Positions 9,501-55,360 of a stretch of 64,000 bases of DNA are shown here, piece by piece. The notes beneath the pieces were generated by a model. That model worked only from the letters and a program-made list of their open reading frames with translations, did no database searches and had not been told where the DNA came from. The stretch's first letter is position 1. The number at the start of each line of letters is the position of its first letter. The stretch comes from Sycon ciliatum (lineage: Eukaryota > Porifera > Calcarea > Leucosolenida > Sycettidae): contig NC_088644.1 of NCBI RefSeq assembly GCF_964019385.1, positions 20,079,154-20,143,153 of the forward strand, given 5' to 3'. The position numbers were made by a program, and so were the translations under genes.

Positions 9501-11100
9501 CCGCCGACAGAACTTGACACTTGACTGACTCACGACGCGAGAAGTCCATCGAACCTTCAGAGATTCGGACGGTGCTCACTAAACCTGAACATCTTTCAGG
9601 TTATTAACAGTCCTAACTAACGGTGCCTTTGGGAAGCGATTCACAAAATGTGCCCTGAAATTTCATATCAGCCAATCCGCATAGTGATGACCTACAATGA
9701 TATCGGGTAGGCATGCCTGCATGCAAAGCAATGCACCGTCAAGACACTCAAAAAGGGGCAATGGTCAACACACACAACGCTTCATGTTGGCAAGACAGTA
9801 TAATGTGCAAAAGGCAGTGCATTGTCACTTTCGGGTGATCGAGGTATTCGGATTTCCGGTGTTTGGATAATGGTGATATGATTGTACTCAGAAAAACACG
9901 AAACTATACATGCCTCACAACAATAATATGGTCCTAACAGGGACAATTTGCCATGCTTTGTGTCTATGATTTCTTCTGTGGAAGCTGGGTTTCCTACGTG
10001 ACAGGGTTCTTGCCAAAGCGACTTAGCGGGGCGCTGCAACCTCTTTCACCTTTTGACCGCCCCTTTCAAAATGAATGCACCACCCTTCAGAGTGTGAGCG
10101 CTACCTTTTATATGCATGATAAGTACAAATCATAATTATAGTAGCACAGTATAAAATGGCGGTGAAATCACAAGGTTTTGGGTACGATGATCCCCCCCCC
10201 CCCCCCCCTTATCACTTTTGTTCTGGCTATAACCCTGCGCGAGACATCCGCACTGAAGTCATGAAAAATATCTCAGTTTTCTGTATTATACACTGGGAAC
10301 AGAATGAATCAAGTTCTAGTATTTGTTGGAGCTCAAATTTCCCATGTTGAGGTAACCATCAGTCAAGGATAACAATCCGATTACTCTTCTTTACTGGTAA
10401 GTTGATCTGCCTGTCTGAAGATTTCGCGTTCCGTTCCTTCATTTTCTGTCCATACAAAACTGTCTCACCCACATGCGACTATTGGTTCTGGCGTTTCCTT
10501 GAATTCATGCAGCAAAGACTCGAAGATATGGACAAAGCTGCCAATGAAAACAGCCAAGTTCTGCATAGCACAGAGTTTGCACAAGCCAAACTCACCGAGC
10601 AGGTACTTTCTTGAACTGTTCAGTTCTTATTGTGCAGTACACGTACAGGACAAAGGGGATGGAGTTACTAACATAGTGCAGGCACTGTCTATACACACAT
10701 CTACATGTACACTGGTTAAAACTACTCAGGCGGATGAACCTTCGCTGTAAAGAAGTACTGCCCGCAAGCCTGGCAAAGGTGAATCCTGCAGCATAAGAGA
10801 ATCCTGCTGCCTGGTAATGGATACCGTGCTTCTTGGTATTCCATTTTTCAACGTATACTCCCGTGATTTCATCCATTTTCATGTGGGCATGTGTGTGCGT
10901 GTGTGTATTTCTGTGTGTGTGTGTGTGTTTGTGTGCGGGAGCTCGTTACATATGTGTGCTTGCATGCACATACTATGTGTGTGCGTGTCTGTGTCTGCGG
11001 CTGCGACTTTCGCCGTCCGAATGATTTATCCCGACACAAGAACTACTGCCTCGCCTAATAGCTATCATCGCCTTTGGCGATGGGCTTTCCAAATGTCCAA

Positions 11101-13083: not shown

Positions 13084-35512
<22,429 letters not shown>

Positions 35513-37499: not shown

Positions 37500-38840
37500 G
37501 ACCTCCGAGTCGCCAGGATACCATTACCAGATTACCAGACTGTCCAACCTCCTGGCCACCCCAAATAAAAACCCGGACACCTAGCGGAGATCTACTGACT
37601 ACTGTCCGTTCTCAAAGTAGATCTACCTCAACTCTAGACTGAAGTCATTCTTTATTTTCTCTTTTTTTAGTGAAAAGATCTGAACGCACACGAAGACACT
37701 TACTGACTTAGACAGTGATACAACAAGAGCGAAGTGGGCATGAACCTTCCACGCCAGTGCAGTAGGCCGCGGGGTGCCCGGATTTTGCCCCAACGCAATA
37801 CTACTACTAGTACTAGTGTGAAGCGGCATGCCGGCAACATGGTTGTCGTGAAGGTAACGCCGGCCTGTAGACAGTGTAGTTCTGCACGCTCCCTGTCAGG
37901 TGACAGCTAGCTCAGCACTGACAGAAATTCTCACCTTTTTCCCTCCACCTTCCCAAGCTAGGCCTAGGGCTACTACTACTGCTACTAGTACTAGTAGTAG
38001 AAGTAGTTGCCAGTTTCTACATTCTGTTCTCTCAGTCGTTTCTAGTAGCTTTGCCGTTCAGCTGCGTTTCTCAACGCTCCCTCTAGCTCTGGCTTAGCTA
38101 CACACTGCTGGAACTACCTGGCTGCTGCCTCCAACAGGTTACGTTGGGTTTGACAATGCTCACAGTTTCAGTTACTCCAGCCCCGTAGTTTCAAGGTGCT
38201 TTACACTACTGTAAGTACTATCGTGCACACTGACTGACTTCGCCCCCCCCCCCCCCCCCACCCCCTTCGCGTCGTTTGTGTTCAGGACACTCAACTTCCT
38301 CCTTTCGTTTCGTTTGTGTTGGCTGTGGCAGGGCACTTCGTTCCCCTTCTCACAGCTCCAGCTTATCCATCTCGTTTCACATAGCGTACAAGTATTCCTG
38401 CGCATACAGTCCTCATGGTTGAAGCTGCTCTCCGTTCGTTGGCCAACTGTCAGCCAGCAGACTCCCAATAATCGGAGTTGTCGCAATAACGCTCTTCTAA
38501 TGATTATGTTAGTTCGCGACAACCTGTATTCCCTAAACCCGAGCTACCACACAGGACGACTCTGCCGTCCCCGGCGCCGGCTGAAGCAGAAGCCACCATG
38601 CGTGAGGATCAGACACAGAGTCACAGCGAGTGCGGCCAGATACAGTTACAACGACTCTCACCATGTCAACTACTCGCTAGATCCTCTACTAATCTCCAAG
38701 ATAACTCACTTTCAAGTCAAGTAAGTGATAGCAGGTTGGTCTAGAACAGGGGCCGGACCGTCCGTAAGTAACGATATTTCAAAAACAATGATATCTTGTG
38801 TCTTGTAATGTTTCTGGAAAAGACAAAAAGGAAGAGAACG
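37500..38840. other. Upstream region of the PhyH gene; no gene recognised
   Basis: Contains ACTAGTACTAGT-type short repeats near 37800 and 37985, and a poly-C run at about 38244-38260. ORFs here show no recognisable family. Confidence 0.5.
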
Positions 38841-38969
38841 TGAAGTTGATTGTTCCAACTAGGAACACACGCTTCTTGCCGAACTTGACACTTGACTGAC
38901 TCACGACCGCCATCCGGAGCACACGAGGAGCACGTCGCACCTTCCACTCGGCAAACCTGCAAGAAAGCA

Positions 38970-39031
38970 CCACTCCCTGCTCAATACACAGTGTTTCGGG
39001 GAATTCACCCCTCATCAGTTGAGCTTGAGTA
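38970..39031 (-). ncRNA. Hammerhead ribozyme (type I fold), left arm
   Basis: On the minus strand: CTGATGAG, stem II GGGG/CCCC with loop TGAATT, GAAA, a 3-bp stem III ACA/TGT with loop CTG, then the predicted cleavage triplet GTA. Stem I inner part is GCTCAA/TTGAGC, followed by an internal loop AA/AGG and an outer helix. All invariant core residues (CUGAUGA, GAAA, NUH) are present. Confidence 0.85.
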
Positions 39032-39069
39032 AGCTGAGGAGATTCCACACTGGCACAATCTTCCTCAGC

Positions 39070-39132
39070 CTACTCGAGCTCAACTGATGAGGGGTGAATT
39101 CCCCGAAACACGGTGTATTGAGCAGGGAGTGG
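39070..39132 (+). ncRNA. Hammerhead ribozyme (type I fold), right arm
   Basis: Core CTGATGAG at 39084-39091, stem II GGGG/CCCC (39091-39094 with 39101-39104), GAAA 39105-39108, stem III ACA/TGT with loop CGG. Predicted cleavage is after A39117 (GTA). Inner stem I is GCTCAA (39078-39083) with TTGAGC (39118-39123). An asymmetric internal loop GA/AGG and an outer helix CTACTC/GAGTGG follow; this is where natural hammerheads make their loop-loop contact. Confidence 0.87.
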
Positions 39133-39749
39133 TGCTTTCTTGCAGGTTTGCCGAGTGGAAGGTGCGACGTGCTCCTCGTGTGCTCCGGATGGCGGTCGTG
39201 AGTCAGTCAAGTGTAGGGCTGAAACGATCATCCATCTAGCCCAACCGATTACTCTTTATCATAACGATCGATTATTCGATTATAATCTTTAAGAGGCCGC
39301 ACCTGGAATATGTACGTAGAATGGCCAAAAGTGGAAATATGTACAAAATTTTGCACAAAAAAGTGTTAACCCACATGCATGCACGCATACACACAATAAA
39401 ACTTAAAACAACCAAAACATCAATATGCACATTTATCCAGACACGCTCTCACATACACACGCACGCATGTGCGTGCCAAACGTACAAAACGTGGACACGT
39501 GTACACCAAGCAGATAGAATACAAGGAAGTGGGGTTTGCCATAGTTTTTTTTTTTCAATTTTGTCTGATAAATATTTACGAGACTTTGCATCGAGCGACA
39601 CCGTGGATAACATTGAGCCAAGAATTATGCAATAAACCAGAAGAGATATCTCTTCACAAGTAGGCAAATAAATGCGTAGGTGCCCGGCAACAGCAATCGG
39701 GCGAGTCACAGCAATGTACGTATTGCAACTTCAATGATACGCATACACG

Positions 39750-40145
39750 GTTGACCACCCATGCCTCCATTTTCGGCGGGTCAACCACATGGTGGCCCGG
39801 CAACTTCAAACGGGAACACACTGATACAACATACACAGTTGACCACCCATGCCTCCATTATCGGCGGGTCAACCACATGGTGGCCCGGCAACTTCAAACG
39901 GGAACACACCGATACAATAGACACAGTTGACCACCCATGCCTCCATTATCGGCGGGTCAACCACATGGTGGCCCGGCAACTTCAAACGGGAACACACCGA
40001 TACAATAGACACAGTTGACCACCCATGCCTCCATTATCGGCGGGTCAACCACATGGTGGCCCGGCAACTTCAAACGGGAACACACCGATACAACATACAC
40101 AGTTGACCACCCATGCCTCAAACCGGCGGGTCAACCACACAACAA
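39750..40145. repeat. 88-bp minisatellite in repeat B2
   Basis: Units begin with GTTGACCACCCATGCCTC at 39750, 39838, 39926, 40014 and (partial) 40102, exactly 88 bp apart. Each unit contains GTTGACC and GGTCAAC as a possible hairpin. Confidence 0.95.
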
Positions 40146-40878
40146 CATACAGGTGTCACAACACTGAGACAGTACAGCACAACACTGAGAGGCAAATGCA
40201 TTTGACCCTCCTTGGGGCCTCGTCATGTGACACAAGATACCGACGTGTCATGTCTAAAGGGAGGGAGGGAGGGGAGAAAACACAACCTTGAGTCACTTTG
40301 GCTAACTGGATGACAGAAATTGTTGACAAGGAAGTTGCTTTGCTGACACGAGGCAGGGCAAAGCGGCCACGCAAGATTTATTTTTTCATCCACCATTTTC
40401 GGAAAAAATATTTTTTATTCATGTGCCGCGTGACGAACCGTGACAAAACACGTGCATGCGTGGGCTAACTTGGCTTTGCTGCTCAAAGCCGTCATTTAAC
40501 CCACATGCATGCACGCATACACACAATAAAACTTAAAACAACCAAAACATCAATATGCACATTTATCCAGACACGCTCTCACATACACACGCACGCATGT
40601 GCGTGCCAAACGTACAAAACGTGGACACGTGTACACCAAGCAGATAGAATACAAGGAAGTGGGGTTTGCCATAGTTTTTTTTTTCAATTTTGTCTGATAA
40701 ATATTTACGAGACTTTGCATCGAGCGACACCGTGGATAACATTGAGCCAAGAATTATGCAATAAACCAGAAGAGATATCTCTTCACAAGTAGGCAAATAA
40801 ATGCGTAGGTGCCCGGCAACAGCAATCGGGCGAGTCACAGCAATGTACGTATTGCAACTTCAATGATACGCATACACG

Positions 40879-41274
40879 GTTGACCACCCATGCCTCCATT
40901 TTCGGCGGGTCAACCACATGGTGGCCCGGCAACTTCAAACGGGAACACACTGATACAACATACACAGTTGACCACCCATGCCTCCATTATCGGCGGGTCA
41001 ACCACATGGTGGCCCGGCAACTTCAAACGGGAACACACCGATACAATAGACACAGTTGACCACCCATGCCTCCATTATCGGCGGGTCAACCACATGGTGG
41101 CCCGGCAACTTCAAACGGGAACACACCGATACAATAGACACAGTTGACCACCCATGCCTCCATTATCGGCGGGTCAACCACATGGTGGCCCGGCAACTTC
41201 AAACGGGAACACACCGATACAACATACACAGTTGACCACCCATGCCTCAAACCGGCGGGTCAACCACACAACAA
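40879..41274. repeat. 88-bp minisatellite in repeat B1
   Basis: Same array as at 39750, displaced by exactly 1129 bp, with the same number of units (starts at 40879, 40967, 41055, 41143, 41231). Confidence 0.95.
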
Positions 41275-41529
41275 CATACAGGTGTCACAACACTGAGACA
41301 GTACAGCACAACACTGAGAGGCAAATGCATTTGACCCTCCCAAAAACCAGTGTTTACGACCAAGCATTTCTCACGGCATCGCTCATTAGCATAACTTCCT
41401 GCAAGTAACCATGGCAAACCCCTAAGTGATACCCACAGAGCCACACCGGCACAAGGACTGCACAACAAGCGGAAGGCACAACACTGTACAACACTACAAA
41501 TGTACCTCACTTCTGTTCTCAACACCACA

Positions 41530-42503
41530 TGGGCGTGGGCTGTTCCAGTCTTTGCTGCTAGCCATTGCACAGAGGGTATACCGGCTGCACGCCTGACATA
41601 GTGATCGGATGCTGCACTTCGCCAGCAGCCTGCACGGCATATGGCTGCTTCACAGACACTTGTACTCCGGTGAGCCATGAGTGTGGCCCCGCCAATGCGC
41701 ACAGAATGGGAGCTCACCCGGTTGCAGTTGAGGATCCTAGTCGAGAAAACTCGGGAGAAGTAGCCGCCGTCGACGAACACAAACACTGGCCGTGAGCTGC
41801 CGGCAGTAGCGGTCAGGGACCGGAACTCGGCCATAGCCGAAACTGGGTACATCATATTATGTGTGCGCAAATACCGGGCTTAAAGGTCTGAGTCGCTCAT
41901 GAGATCATTGCTGGCAGCAATCAGAGCGGCGAGTTCAGCAGAGGAGTTGGCACCAGGCACTGGTTGGCTGTGGAAGCCAGTTCTCGGAAGCGAGTAATCA
42001 CAATAGGTTCATGCTGCATCTCAGCGGCCCGTTGCCCCAAAAACGATTGTCCTTGATAGAAACCGCAGAAGCCAACATCAGAGGCATCCGTGAATAGCTC
42101 AAGGTCAGGGGACTTTGAAAACTCGACATCGTAGAAGAAGGATTGGCCATTCCAGTTTGCGGCAAAGGAGCGCGACCATTCGATGTCCAAGTGAGCTTTT
42201 GTGTTGATGTTGACTACTGACTGAAGAGACTGAGAGAGTTGTCCAGCTAAGATACAGGAGTTGACGGATGAAGGTCCTGCCAGGAGGAACCACCTTTGCG
42301 GCAAGGACAAGGTTCCGATCAGCGACAGCAGTTCCCGCGTTGTGTAGCTAGTGCGCGTGGACTACTCACTCAAAGCCGCTAGAAAGGCAAATAACTTCTT
42401 GTCAGGTAGCCGCATCACCTGGTCCTCGCTGTCGACTTCTATGCCAAGTACCGTCACCACTGTTGCTGGGCCGACCACCTTGCTGAGGTTGTCGAAGACC
42501 TGC
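41530..42503 (-). pseudogene. RT end, RNase H and tyrosine recombinase remnants of the Ngaro/DIRS-like element
   Basis: At 42503-42369 the minus strand reads VVTVLGIEVDSEDQVMRLP, the end of a DIRS/Ngaro-type RT. At 42310-41921 comes an RNase H segment with LELFTDASDVGFCGFYQG. At 41870-41530 comes the tyrosine-recombinase C-terminus: YPVSAMAEF, PVFVFVDGGYFSR, the HxxR motif in SHSVRIGGAT, and the region of the catalytic tyrosine in CWRSAASDHYVRR. The pieces are in separate frames. The RT catalytic core (YADD box) was not found, so most of RT is deleted. Not functional. Confidence 0.82.
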
Positions 42504-43729
42504 GGAACCGTTGCTTTCAGTTGAACTCATTCCATTGACCATGAAGCACACGAACATAAGCACCTTGTTAAGTGCAGCGTACTGGTTCTTGTGCTGGCCT
42601 GCACAGCTATCAGGAATAGTTTTACCCAGAATGACTGGGTTGATGATTTCTCCCTAAGAGAGGGTAATGCCACGTGCACAGCAGATGTGGTGCATAACGA
42701 ACGCACAGTGGGCATAAAATCTTCATATCCACATCAAAGGCCACAAGCGTTTGACAACCACACCTGATACGTAGATGATCAACGATCGTCCCTGCACTCA
42801 ACGTCGCTCCAGCAGTAGTAGCATGTTGCAAACCACCATCGTACGTTGTCCATGTAAATGCCTCTGCTCCTTGTCTACTTCTTTGGCTAGATTTTTTGAC
42901 AGGTAATCACAGCCATTTCTGAGTTGGCGTCAACGCCACTCGCCACGTCGAGGCCTAAATAACTGGTCCTCTGCTTCGAGTAGTTCTTGCTTGGCCTCAT
43001 GAACTCCAGGAAATTCACTACTGCGACCATGAGCTACTCTATCTGCCCACGCAACAAATAAATATTTCAACCAAGCGCGATCGATCGCTGTTTGAAGTTG
43101 TGAATTTTCAAGCGCTTCCAGCTCACACGAGTCAGCGCTTGTCTACGCAGACTAGCACAACTAATACTCTTGTACAGCTTGGCGGAGAGACAAAGGAGAA
43201 AACGGAGAAAACACAACCTTGAGTCACTTTGGCTAACTGGATGACAGAAATTGTTGACAAGGAAGTTGCTTTGCTGACACGAGGCAGGGCAAAGCGGCCA
43301 CGCAAGATTTATTTTTTCATCCACCATTTTCGGAAAAAATATTTTTTATTCATGTGCCGCGTGACGAACCGTGACAAAACACGTGCATGCGTGGGCTAAC
43401 TTGGATGCTCAAAGCCGTCATTTATGTATGCAGACCGGACACGACCTTGACCTTCGAGCTTCATGCTCCAGCTTCGTTGTACTACACTACACGTAGGAGT
43501 CGGGCTGTTTTTCGATTTTGACAGCATGTAACAAGGAAGGCGAGTCGCGCGTGCAGTGCGTAAGAAAAATTTAAAAAACGCAAAATAATCGTAATCGGTA
43601 ATCTATACGATTGCTCGATCGTTAGAGTTATCAAACGAGTACTCGATTATTCGGTATAATCGTTTCAGCCCTAGTCAAGTGTCAAGTTCGGCAAGAAGCG
43701 TGTGTTCCTAGTTGGAACAATCAACTTCA

Positions 43730-44204
43730 TGACTTTTACCGCCGAAGTCGCAACTAGGAAGAGAACGGACGGGATATAAGTATGAAACAAGAAAACCTTA
43801 TGATTCGGGCATGAAGTATGCCTCTACCTTTTACGCCTAGCAACCTTCTACTTCCGAAGTAGTCAGTCTGACCTTCCTATGTCCTAATTCTAAACGTTGG
43901 TGTTTAGTTTGCTTGCTATTTGTGCCTTGGTTGGTGAAGACATTTCTGGCTTGATTCTAATGCTGTGGCCATTTTCAGGGCATCCTCCTTCCATTGCTTC
44001 TCCTTTGACATTGGCGAAAGCAGTACTTCCCAAGTCCTCCTTTCCCTCAGTGTCGCTGGGCACTGGGCATGCACTAATTCTCACATGCACAATCATAACA
44101 CAATCATAACACAATCATAACACAATCATACACTACGCATGCCAGGAAGTACCTCGTTAGCACGTCTAGACAAAATATACTATTAAAGTCTTATATTTGT
44201 GAGG
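43730..44204. other. Spacer between the nested elements and the Penelope-like element
   Basis: No gene recognised. ACACAATCAT is repeated in tandem about four times near 44090-44130. Confidence 0.5.
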
Positions 44205-44947
44205 GTGCATAGTTATAATAGCAATAAAGAGAACAAATTCTGCAGTCATCGCCACACTACAACGAAGTCATGAAAGTTTACCAGAATTAATTTTCTTGTC
44301 ACATTCATCAGTGGAAAGTCGTCACTGAAGAGTAACCATGCTGAACAATGATTAAATATACATTCAATGCTGTCATGAAGTTGGTTGCTCCAACGAGTCT
44401 TCTAAGTTCAATGATGTGTTACGAGAACAAAATACAGTGCCAAAATAGAATGAGGGAAGGTGAGACAATAGAAGTGAAGTGAGAGCTAAGTGCAACGGCG
44501 GGTGAGAAACTAATTATAACGCTAAAACTGTGTAGTGAGACAACAATCGTGCTGTGCACCTACGAAATATTTTTTAACGCAACTACATGTTTCTTCTGCT
44601 TACAAAGATCAGGCTTATGCAAACGAATACAAACAGCCTCAAGTACTTTCAACTGACTAGCATACCGTGCACGACAAAGAACAGAAAAACTTAAGTCATC
44701 ATACACCTGCAGACACTTAGGGTGAGACAACAAGTGAAGAAAAACGGCAGACTTCTTACGATACCAACCACCATCTGATTCCTCGTCTCCAACAACCGCA
44801 ACCTCGTCCTCCGTCTCATCTCCCAACTCGTCCTCAGTGTCATCCTCAGTGTCATTCTCCTCATCAACACCGATCGGTCCCAGGCTCGCTTCATGTTTTA
44901 CCTCTGTTCGTTGACTCCTCCTTTGATCTTGATGGTAAATTGTTACC

Positions 44948-44948
44948 G

Positions 44949-44992
<44 letters not shown>
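44948..44992. repeat. (GTT)n microsatellite
   Basis: 15 pure units. Confidence 0.95.
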
Positions 44993-45109
44993 CCTGTTGT
45001 TAAATCTTGTGTTCCCAGTGTCCTCGCTGGTGTTTGACCTCCAGTACTGTAATATTGAACGAGAGAGCTTGGAAGCTCAGGGCCCTACGCTATGCTTTTT
45101 TGCCTTGAT

Positions 45110-45553
45110 GACCTAGACAAAAAAAGCATAGGGATGTTATAAATTCTTTAAAAAAATCGATTCGAACCCGAACCCGCACTATCGCGCGCCCTCATGCATC
45201 CCCCGATACACTTCGCATACATACTAATTCTTCCAAGTTGTTTCACATTGTGATCTTGCATTTGAAAGCCCTATTTGAATATGCATTGTGGCCAGCCGTC
45301 TTTGATGGCACGGTACGGTAGGGGATAGGTACGGGACAGGTACGATAGAGGGTAATACGACACCGTCTAGCTGCCCGCAATATTCAAATAGGGCTTTCAA
45401 ACGCAAGATAATAACGTGAAGCAACTTGGAAGAATGGGTATGAATGCGAAGTGTATGGGGGAATGCATGTAGGGCGATAGTGCGGGTTCGAATCCCAGGA
45501 TATGCCTGAAACAAAATAGGAGAATTGAAAAATTTATAACATCCTATGTTTTT
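45110..45553. mobile_element. Imperfect palindromic element with a B-box-like sequence
   Basis: Long imperfect inverted repeat: GGGATGTTATAAATT near 45131 pairs with AATTTATAACATCC near 45533. TTTGAAAGCCCTATTTGAAT pairs with ATTCAAATAGGGCTTTCAAA; CCAAGTTG pairs with CAACTTGG. The right arm contains GGGTTCGAATCCC (45484-45496), a perfect Pol III B-box. It lies between the GIY-YIG part and the C-terminal tail of the Penelope-like element. Confidence 0.65.
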
Positions 45554-48500
45554 TGCCGTCAGATACGGATAGCGCCAGGCGTGACACAAACAAACACACA
45601 AACAAACAAATACCAAATTAAAGCTGTGTGGACCCTGGCTAGCGCCAGCCGTTACTGAAGTAACGTCTTCTGCATAGCTACGGGAATAATTAGCCGTTGA
45701 TCGTCTAGGTCTTTGAATGTTGATTGTGTTACTTTCTTTGTTGAATTCCGTTCCCTTCAGCCTTCTCGTTGTTCACGTTCAGTGCTTGCCTCATCCATAT
45801 ATGCATGTGCCACCGACACCACAGACTCAGCCCCAGCACTGCCGATGATAGATGTAGGTGGCGGTTCTGGGGGAGGCAACGGCAAAGACGGCGATGAGGG
45901 CATCACCTCATCACAGCGTCCACTTTGGTCTTGAGCTGAATGTTGTTGTGGTGTGTTATCTTGTGTTGTTATGGTGCATTGTGTTGTGGTGACAATATGC
46001 CCATTATCCGACTCCAAGGCTCTCGATACGGGTAATGGAGGCACTATTGCCGATGACGGCAATTGTGCTAATGATGGCTGTGGCCGAGGGTTCTTCGGTG
46101 GCCTGCCGCGTTTGGGCCGCAGTGCCCGTGCCGAGCCAGTCAGCATATGCAGTGGGACGTGCTGCTTGATACGTGCGTCCAGATGTTGAAGAGTCCTACC
46201 AACGTACCGACTACCGCATTGTCGGCACTCAAATTGGTATACCAATTTAGATGCAAGTTGGGTTGGTAGGACATCCTTCCTCACCGTGAACGCACGTACA
46301 GTTGTGAAAACGGGTACAAAATGTACCGCGTAGTATGTTTGCTGTACAATTTTCCGCACCACGCGACTCATGGATAATGAGAGGTTACCTTTCCAAGGGA
46401 GAGAAAGATATGTGGGACATTAGTCCGGGCCAAAACGTATTTCCTTTTTATGCAGCCTTTCGCTCACGAGTTCCTTCAATAGATCGGCGGGGTACCCGTC
46501 TTTAGAAAAACGGACTTTAGGAAGTCCAGTTCCTCAGCTAGTTTGGAAGAGGAGCAAATACGCTTTGCTCGATCCACCAAGTTACACACCAAATTCACCT
46601 TGTATTGGTACGCACAATACGAGTCAAACATTATGTACTGGCCGGTGAATGTAGGCTTTCTGTACACAGATGTTACGGTACCCTGACTAGACTTTTCCAC
46701 AAGGACGTCTAGAAAGGGAAGTTGGTTCGCTTGTTCGTGTTCACACGTAAAACGTATGGAAGGATGTAGGTCATTTAGAATACAAAGAAAGATTTCTTGA
46801 TCTTCAAGAGAATCAAACCAGGTGAAGGAATCCTCAACAAAACGAACGTACAATGCTGGCCACAACTGTTCTGCAATCAGTGACTCGCAGTAACCAACGA
46901 ACACTTTCGCTTATACTGGACCTAATAGAGAGCCCATGGCTACCCCATCAACCTGCCTGTACATAATGTCACCGAAGGAAAACTCCACACCAGTCGTCAC
47001 GAGCAACATCAGTTCACGGAACGCCGTCTCCGATATCCATGGCGTGTCAACTTCATCATTTCGGTACAACACATCTAGGCAAATATTGGTAGTATCTTCT
47101 AACGGGACGTTCGTGAACAGACTCACAACATCAAACGAGCACATATGCGCGGAGGCCGGAACCGGGTGGGAGCGAAGGACGTCAATGAATTCGAAGGTGT
47201 CTTTAACTGTATGTTTGCAATAGAACGTTTGCACGATGTCAAGCCAACCACACAACCATTTAGAGATATTATATTGCGGTGATGCAACCATGGATAATAT
47301 GGGGCGCAACGGACAGTTCGGTTTATGTATTTTTGGTAGCCCATAGAGACGTGGCCGGACGGAACCAATGGGCCGCATTTTGAAGAACTCTTCCTCCGAT
47401 ATCTGTTTACTTTCTTTTTAAAGTTTCTTGAGAAAACTATTCAACTTTTTCTCTACTCAACTGTGTTGTCATGAGTAGATACCGGACTGAGTTGGACAAA
47501 CTTACTCGTGTCCTCAAGGATGACCGCCATTTTCGTATTGTACTCTTGTGTGCTGATAATAACTGTAGCTCGACCCTTGTCTGGTCTTGTGATTCTAATA
47601 TCAATGTTGTTCGTAAGATGACGTCGAGCCTTAAGGTGTACTCTGGATAATGAAAATGTGCTTCGGTCTGGAGGTTTTTCGGCGTGTTCTTCGGCGATGG
47701 CTCTAAGATTAGCCGTACAGATAGCACGCTGATTTTCAGACACTGGTGTAAAATTCTTAATGAGCTTTTTGTGAACATTTCGAACTGCGTAAGAACTATT
47801 TCCTTTCTGTTGTTAGAAGGAGGAATACCAAACTCCGCTCCCCGGCACAGTAATTCCTTTTGCACAGGGGATAGTTTGGTGTTGGCCAGATTAATAATCG
47901 TGTCCATGTTGGGCTTAAAGGAGCCATACCGCTTTGCACGCAGCCATTTGATGTTTTTCTCGTACTTGGCGAGGAGTTTGACTTGCTGCTTGCTGTCATT
48001 CTCGGCCAGTAGTGTACTGAATCTGAGGTAGTCGTGATAGGAAAGGAACGAACGAGCCGAACTATACAGACGTTTAAATTGAGACTGAACAGAACATAAT
48101 GTGTCACTAGAGCGCGCAATGTCGTCTTTGAGGAATACTCTTTCTATTGCTAATGAGTGATATGCACGGGCTTTGTGCACCCGATTCTGGATGGAAGTAG
48201 GGCACACTCCATTTTCCTTACAGCGCTTCAAAAAGATAATATTATGTGAAATGTTTCTAGCCAAGTAGCGTTTGCGCAGAGCATCATTCAGGATTTCAAC
48301 CTGACTCTTATCTCCGTTTAAAATATGCAAATAATCGACGTGGAGACAACAATTTTATAATAGCAATAACGAGAACAAATTCTGCAGTCATTGCCACACT
48401 ACAACGAAGTCATGAAAGTTTACCAGAATTAATTTTCTTGTCACATTCATCAGTGGAAAGTCGTGACTGAAGAGTAACCATGCTGAACAATGATCAAATA

Positions 48501-48676
48501 TACATTCAATGATGTGTTACGAGAACAAAATACAGTGCCAAAATAGAATGAGGGAAGGCGAGACAATAGAAGTGAAGTGAGAGCTAATTATAACGCTAAA
48601 ACTGTGTAGTGAGACAAACAATTTTAATGCAACTACATGTTTCTTCTGCTCACGGTATGCTAGTCAGTTGAAAGTA

Positions 48677-49237
48677 CAGTCAAATCTGCTGTTAGCGACC
48701 TCTGCTGTAGGCGACCATCTACCGTTAGCGACCGATTTTCCGTGCACCGACGGTTTCACATACAAACTGATCTGTCCAGAGCGACCATCTGCTGTGCGCG
48801 ACCAGCGACCGCGATTTCATGCACGGTGGCTGCATTCAAATCTGCTGTAAGCGACCGCGACCCAGGTTCAGTAAGGACTAAGGTGCGAAACTGTACTTGC
48901 CAGTGCGCTGTCAACTGCAAAGTGTGAAAATGCGCTGTCTTGCAAGTGCGATCGACTGGCGCCTAGCCTGTACTGAGGCTGTGCTGTAGCTCTAGCTCTC
49001 AAGTCCAGGCAGTGTCGATCTACTGCCATATCGCATACGCGTACTATACGGGTATGGTCGTCGTTGAATATCCAATAAAAATGATATTAAAAATCACATT
49101 ATTCTCGTCGATTTGAGTACATGGAAGCATATACCTGGTATGCCGGATTTACCATACATCTGCCGTAGGAGACCATCTGCCGTAAGCGACCGCTTTTTCT
49201 TGCACCAAGGGGCGGTCGCTTACGACAGATTTGACTG
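48677..49237. mobile_element. TA-flanked TIR element (pogo/mariner-like MITE)
   Basis: Ends CAGTCAAATCTGCTGTTAGC and GCTTACGACAGATTTGACTG, flanked by TA on both sides; 561 bp. It contains several internal (TA)AGCGACC words. No transposase. It is inserted in the inverted terminal copy of the Penelope-like element. Confidence 0.82.
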
Positions 49238-49975
49238 TACTTTGTTCTCGTAACACATCATTGAATGTATATTTAATCATTGTTCAGCATGGTTACTCTT
49301 CAGTGACGACTTTCCACTGAATGTGACAAGAAAATTAATTCTGGTAAACTTTCATGACTTCGTTGTAGTGTGGCGATGACTGCAGAATTTGTTCTCTTTA
49401 TTGCTATTATAAAATTGTTGTCTCCACGTCGATTATGTGCATAGTTATGGTATTCTTTTTGTTATGTTGTGTGTAATGCCCAGACATGTCAACAAGCATG
49501 AAGAGCAACTCAACAGCAATGTCATCAACTGACGGTTATGGTGAGTGACTAAGAAATAACTCGTGATGGAGCTCACATTGATAGAAAATTAGAAATCTCA
49601 AAACAAGCGACCTGTGTCGGAGAAAAAAATAAAAATAATGAAAATAATTCGAAAGCATGTGAACAGTGTTCAGTTATTCGCCTGGCACTGAGAATACAGT
49701 GTGACCAGCCAGTCTACTGAATGGTGCTGAAAGGGCACAAAGCCTTTCAGCTGGTCAGTGAAAAGGCTGTGCGGTGTGACCACGGCCGTACGCAGAGGTT
49801 GTCCTTTCGGAAAATAATTCTATACTTGTATATACTGCCTTGCACATTTGTGCATTGAGCACTATGCTTCGAGCTGACTCGACCGGCCTTGTTTGTGTTA
49901 AAATTCTATACTGGGATATTCTTAAGTTTGAGGGAGCTGAATTGGGAAATTTTACTAATGTACGAAGAAAAACTT

Positions 49976-55273: not shown

Positions 55274-55360
55274 GAGCTAGCACTCAGTCGGTAGAGCATG
55301 AGACTCTTAATCTCAGGGTCAATCTCAGGGTCGTGGGTTCGAGCCCCACGTTGGGCGCCA
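55274..55360 (+). pseudogene. tRNA-Lys(CTT)-like sequence including 3' CCA
   Basis: The D-arm (CTCAGTCGGTAGAGCATGAG), the CTT anticodon loop (ACTCTTAATCT), the T-arm (GTGGGTTCGAGCCCCAC) and TTGGGCG match animal tRNA-Lys, followed directly by CCA (55358-55360). The 5' acceptor strand is missing, two bases are inserted near the D-arm, and TCTCAGGGTCAA is duplicated. Eukaryotic tRNA genes do not encode CCA, so this is not a normal gene. On the minus strand it equals an extended retroelement primer-binding site, two bases after an LTR-like CA end. Confidence 0.72.

Follow-up and report, generated by a model that had tools for sequence, protein, structure and literature searches.

Inverted hammerhead arms in the genome of Sycon ciliatum are one split retrozyme insertion, probably mobilised by a Penelope-like element protein

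In a 64-kb stretch of the Sycon ciliatum genome (NC_088644.1, positions 20,079,154 to 20,143,153; in contig C2 of the 538-Mb genome), which as a whole is called the window below, two type I hammerhead ribozymes lie in inverted arms. The arms belong to a retrozyme, a hammerhead-bearing non-autonomous retroelement, which is interrupted by a transposon and lies beside a Penelope-like element (PLE). Monomer positions refer to the ~476-bp retrozyme unit, and outer ends of insertions were grouped into the classes A (139-156) and B (164-190), ranges that were set after the first loci had been seen. The features of the locus are:

38829-38840, plus strand: 12-bp target-site duplication AGGAAGAGAACG on the left side of the retrozyme insertion
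38841-39044, minus strand: minus arm of the insertion, covering monomer 416-476 plus 1-144, with its outer end in site A (144)
38979-39024, minus strand: type I hammerhead including the inner stem I; cleavage is predicted to follow base 38985 (minus strand)
39045-39051: inner junction of the arms, monomer 416 / 411, 7 nt unassigned
39052-39213, plus strand: first part of the plus arm, monomer 411-476 and 1-~96; the last 8 bases are the hAT duplication
39078-39123, plus strand: type I hammerhead including the inner stem I; cleavage is predicted to follow A39117
39206-39213 and 43674-43681: 8-bp duplications GTCAAGTG flanking the hAT-like transposon
39214-43673: hAT-like transposon of 4460 bp in the plus arm, with TAGGGCTGAAACGAT ends
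43682-43755, plus strand: second part of the plus arm, outer end at monomer 170 (site B range)
43756-43767, plus strand: 12-bp target-site duplication AGGAAGAGAACG, copy on the right side
44213-49446, minus strand: PLE of family A with broken frames, inverted arm at 49234-49446
44370-44406: miniature insertion of the retrozyme, 37 bp, in the adjoining PLE repeat

The arms are 98% complementary across 153 nt and lie 21 nt apart. In a self-comparison of the window, the right arm picks up again at 43673-43729, and the insertion 38841-43755, minus the transposon and one 8-bp duplication, measures ~447 bp. The initial annotation of this DNA had described a transposon-split repeat, and indeed the 4460-bp element with its 8-bp duplication interrupts the right arm. 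The two hammerhead arms are a single insertion of one non-coding retrozyme-type element, later split by this transposon, which we take to be hAT-like from its 8-bp duplication and TAGGGCTGAAACGAT ends; a Pfam search of two open reading frames (ORFs) inside it gave no match. At 39366-41340, the transposon contains an 845-bp stretch duplicated at 99.9% identity, which includes 88-bp tandem units.

Both arms contain the core CTGATGAG, a 4-bp stem II (GGGG/CCCC), GAAA, a 3-bp stem III and GTA, the stem III loop being CGG in the plus core and CTG in the minus core. Stem I is GCTCAA/TTGAGC in both, with an internal loop of GA or AA / AGG. All core positions are present twice, as described before, and with the conserved core CUGAUGA..GAAA..UH, three helices and an opening at stem I, both copies belong to type I. 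The pattern CTGATGAG..CGAAA..TA has two matches in the window, namely the two cores, where 0.06 are expected. In the covariance-model check proposed earlier, the Rfam model Hammerhead_1, applied to a 68-nt slice, aligned end to end with all 45 positions (20.5 bits, E 0.0035), but the score stayed under the cut-off of 34 bits, and no hammerhead was listed in the full window at gathering scores or in a 601-nt scan to E 10. Taken alone, the plus-arm slice has an alternative fold at -19.0 kcal/mol, compared with -15.3 kcal/mol for the hammerhead, while the predicted fold of the unit from locus L009, linear or circular, includes hammerhead stems I and II.

Genome-wide, the pattern CTGATGAG..CGAAAC has 13,502 matches, compared with 50 for the reversed control pattern. 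From 96 core-pattern places shown with letters, 27 distinct stem II loops were obtained; three further pairs are formed in 22 of them by 12 different stems (shuffled control: mean 1.4, maximum 6). The covariation in stem II supports the hammerhead class and is no proof for the window copy. A genome search with RF00163 yielded 21 matches at E <=0.001, 4 of them above the cut-off, among 74 scored of 76,236 candidates, and is no count of the retrozyme family.

The transposing unit is a ~476-bp monomer in direct head-to-tail tandem, found in L009 and elsewhere, and not the ~420-bp head-to-head unit that had been put forward as the element itself. Hammerhead-bearing units are spaced 476 bp in L009, L010, L017, L021 and others; in some arrays the unit length is 477-480 bp, and tandem units of 476-480 bp continue across the cleavage point. 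Landmarks of the unit are TATATAA at 391 and the hammerhead at 443-476, and the G+C content of the L009 monomer is 51.05%. The longest ATG frame on the circular unit has 80 aa on the plus and 19 aa on the minus strand; on the basis of these frame lengths, not of a domain search, the unit is taken as non-coding and without a protein of its own. A genome search with a 266-bp query led to 1,376 candidates, of which 40 were scored and gave 92 matches; with the unit as query there were 2,196 candidates, and the 40 scored gave 175 matches. Candidates are first-look matches and not confirmed copies. The element is retrozyme-like, as had been supposed. The scored copies are mostly 97-100% identical to the unit, which suggests that the family was recently active. 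At 9510-9536 (plus strand) of the window, 27 bp are identical to monomer 78-104 read in reverse complement and stand isolated from other retrozyme sequence.

The genome is very rich in hammerheads. Numerous distinct hammerhead repeat families with spacings of 228, 237, 352, 476-480, and 591 bp were found among the pattern places of C1. In its first 3 Mb as listed, all five pairs of opposite-strand neighbours with the same loop within 1.5 kb are in the order -+, and they represent three hammerhead families; two hammerhead repeats of the genome other than the retrozyme show this order. Hammerheads from two other families adjoin retrozyme insertions in L015 (1441-1472 and 3767-3798, plus strand) and L017 (4769-4800, plus strand).

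In the window copy, the ribozymes are on opposite transcripts, so no single RNA contains both in the active sense, and the plus transcript, having one active-sense ribozyme, should not release a unit. This transcript is predicted to form a long hairpin (-343.8 kcal/mol, z -41), and each ribozyme is complementary to the opposite arm. The window copy is probably an inert footprint instead of a functional master element.

One A and one B outer end were found in 38 of 41 classed insertions, with medians of 145 and 182 and a median gap of 35 nt. These comprise 17 of 20 insertions in the first set and 21 of 21 in a second set from the unit search; L011 and L024 were excluded from the end counts as old or mixed. 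In the second set, four C8 insertions share equal ends, two of these also a junction, and therefore may be duplicates; counted once, they leave 35 of 38 insertions with A/B ends. Among 150 of the 175 matches listed from the unit search, both ends could be assigned to a class for 22 of 40 clusters, each of which was A/B, and the order was -+ in 24 of the 40 and +- in none. The inner junction was read in 39 insertions (L065 was dropped, being equal to L060), and 35 of them had both arms. Head-to-head arms, which the initial annotation regarded as unusual, are the usual genomic footprint of a single retrozyme insertion and also a known layout of PLEs (PMC3846280).

The positions of the inner junctions vary and are spread over the unit, the two arms mostly end at unrelated positions, and arms sometimes include one or more extra whole units. 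With ranges picked post hoc, 12 of 74 inner ends fall into 455-476 (3.4 expected) and 8 into 382-397 (2.5 expected). Rare variants shared by both arms exceed those in shuffles (7, p 0.001, 15 insertions; five of the seven from L043 alone), a hint that both arms may have been copied from a common template. At the flanks, the longest string common to both sides has 7-13 bp in all 21 insertions scored and at least 11 bp in 16, compared with a mean of 5.4 bp and a maximum of 11 in 420 cross-pairs of flanks; for L017 and L026 this string was located away from the boundary, within repetitive flanking sequence, and the 37-bp miniature was scored with slightly wrong bounds. The scored duplications have 73% A+T, the window 53%. 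In L043, the retrozyme sits inside a PLE with a shared flank of 13 bp, and other PLE copies supply the empty site.

The PLE adjoining the retrozyme in the window has outer ends at 55 and 89 and a 12-bp duplication, GTGCATAGTTAT. Its ORF 45760-46419 matches GIY-YIG at E 0.0019, which is below the Pfam cut-off. PLEs are abundant in the genome: using a 168-aa piece of this PLE as query, 150 scored matches of 1,592 candidates were obtained, many with frames of ~1085 aa. Four intact PLE ORFs carry a reverse transcriptase (RT) followed by GIY-YIG (RVT_1 at E 6.6e-5 to 3.6e-7; GIY-YIG at E 0.019 to 0.00057, in all four below the Pfam cut-off), and an intact frame compared with the PDB gave two weak group II-like RT matches (E 0.21) and nothing else. 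Families A (unit of 3483 bp) and C (3653 bp) both form head-to-head copies with variable junctions and extra tandem units. In all six PLE insertions measured, which are those with both ends inside the sequence examined, one end lies at each of two sites 23-34 nt apart, and partly covered copies agree in their ends. Shared flanks have 10-13 bp in five of the six, the sixth being in a TTA repeat. Upstream of 305 in L058, a PLE-end-like sequence (ATTATTGTCTCCACGTCG) adjoins the one-armed retrozyme, which sits in a TTA repeat; both elements may share an insertion hotspot there.

The miniature insertion in the window PLE consists of a minus part that stops near site A and a plus part, CTTCTAAG, near site B; read by eye, it is flanked by TTCAATG at 44363-44369 and 44407-44413, and the second PLE repeat at 48355-48622 is without it. 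The string GTTGGAGCAACCAACTTCATGAC (44370-44398) had been considered as a recognition signal common to PLE and retrozyme; this idea was dropped because the string occurs in none of L029-L034 of the same PLE family and the match is the 37-bp retrozyme insertion.

The insertion scars of the retrozyme match those of PLEs in the same genome, which points to the enzyme that spreads retrozymes. We consider it likely that the window arms are one retrozyme insertion mobilised in trans by a PLE protein, which would use a different RNA start site for each target strand, as the rule of one A and one B end suggests. In this process, a transcript of the ~476-nt unit would self-cleave and then be ligated into circles or kept as multimers. 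The PLE protein would nick both strands of an AT-rich target ~7-13 bp apart, a distance we infer from the duplication lengths. Each target 3' end would prime reverse transcription, with one strand starting at A (~145) and the opposite strand at B (~182), and the two complementary DNAs (cDNAs) would extend toward each other, halt at variable points, sometimes past one or more extra full units, and be joined into a head-to-head insert with one short tail. Because the arms read across the hammerhead, the template was presumably uncut or religated there.

PLE insertions frequently have terminal inverted repeats, a single short tail and duplications of 8-10 bp (PMC3846280), and a purified Anolis PLE cleaves and extends both target strands, starting at two adjacent internal sites, which accounts for the PLE tail (PMC11167929). 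The retrozyme has head-to-head inverted ends and tandem or partial tandem units in common with Penelope/Poseidon-type PLEs; the short tail has 30-40 bp in PLEs and a median of 35 here, the duplication about 8-10 bp in PLEs and 7-13 bp here (PMC11167929, PMC3846280). Unlike a PLE, it has no RT or endonuclease frame (longest frame 80 aa) and is a passenger. With metazoan retrozymes lacking long terminal repeats (LTRs), it shares small non-coding tandem units that each contain a type I hammerhead whose stem III is short, many dispersed copies and duplications of >4 bp (PMC7229834). Their unit length of 150-450 bp and G+C content of <50% differ from 476-480 bp and 51% here, the published range and G+C value being taken as descriptive and the range not as defining (PMC7229834). 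The head-to-head order with two fixed ends seen here is not described for metazoan retrozymes in the available sections of PMC7229834, and those retrozymes are expressed as linear and circular RNA. Plant LTR retrozymes are hammerhead-bearing non-autonomous retroelements as well, but with type III hammerheads, LTRs and 4-bp duplications (PMC7761336), in contrast to type I, no LTR-type ends and 7-13 bp here.

For the mobilising enzyme, the main metazoan retrozyme study named PLEs as a strong candidate from co-occurrence (PMC7229834), and a review finds no conserved motif in retrozyme repeats hinting at a partner (PMC7761336). Our literature search, covering mostly non-subscription papers without supplements, found none on head-to-head retrozymes or on a PLE footprint on retrozymes. 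The shared quantitative insertion footprint makes the link between PLEs and retrozymes a testable claim, and the rule of one A and one B end also bears on the insertion route of PLEs themselves.

Several observations weigh against mobilisation by a PLE protein in this manner. L019 has two A ends, and one end each of L009 and L015 lies elsewhere, at 113 and 471; only one arm is present in L052, L058, L066 and L068, and L011 has a convergent order, with an older plus copy directly adjoining a minus copy. Inner ends are not clustered at the cleavage site, with 1 of 74 within monomer 1-5, so the genome is without a trace of cleaved 5' ends. Templates cut by the ribozyme had been considered from inner ends at monomer 1, which turned out to be an artefact of the linear query, as a tandem query shifts them to 461-475. 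A comparison of retrozyme and PLE loci revealed no sequence similarity outside retrozyme insertions within PLEs, and a hammerhead scan of PLE families A and C found none.

Instead of priming on both target strands, head-to-head copies could arise by self-priming or template switching on one cDNA or antisense RNA. This was proposed for rotifer Penelope elements because of their palindromic inner junctions (PMC3846280) and leads to the same head-to-head order. Here it appears unlikely, since the two outer ends, which adjoin the left and the right copy of the duplication, are same-sense RNA starts, one A and one B, and the inner ends of the two arms mostly lie at unrelated positions. Even less probable is target-primed insertion of the retrozyme RNA by a long interspersed nuclear element (LINE) with twin priming. 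Twin priming yields inverted copies with duplications, and the window has LINE-like or other RT frames (RVT_1 at E 1.8e-5). However, LINE twin priming starts at the 3' tail, whereas the retrozyme outer ends are two fixed internal sites on opposite strands and not the RNA 3' end; the retrozyme ends inspected showed no poly-A tail, and the footprint equals that of the local PLEs. That the hammerheads are chance or decayed look-alikes without a catalytic role would agree with the Rfam score below the cut-off and the other fold preferred by the plus-arm slice. This is very improbable in view of the 0.06 matches expected in the window, the 13,502 core-pattern matches against 50 for the reversed pattern, the pairing of stem II in 22 of the 27 distinct loops (1.4 on average after shuffling), and the fold of the circular L009 monomer, which includes stems I and II. 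A foldback DNA transposon or miniature inverted-repeat transposable element with a hammerhead by chance in its long terminal inverted repeats would bring a near-perfect inverted repeat flanked by a duplication, but is very improbable given two ends whose positions on the unit differ by ~35 nt and vary over several bases, a duplication of 7-13 bp, variable inner junctions, and possible whole extra units in the arms.

Retaining mobilisation by a PLE protein, a wider proposal can be made, which we consider slightly less probable than not. Animal retrozymes may be substrates of PLE proteins in the form of ribozyme-circularised RNA with two start sites, on which two RTs, one per strand and always at different sites, would circle to build head-to-head tandems; the ribozyme would provide a template without end, and the same would apply to the majority of the thousands of hammerhead repeats that such genomes contain.

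Outside the retrozyme and PLE locus, the region 20354-34121 contains two 4.9-kb copies with 99.5% identity (21912-26774 and 28976-33839), each with an RT-like frame of 1363 aa, and between them a related 656-aa frame matches RVT_1 (E 1.8e-5). The Pfam search of the window ORFs also detected a PhyH gene, and at 55282-55349 (plus strand) a weak tRNA match, whose variable region contains an insert, scores barely above the Rfam cut-off.
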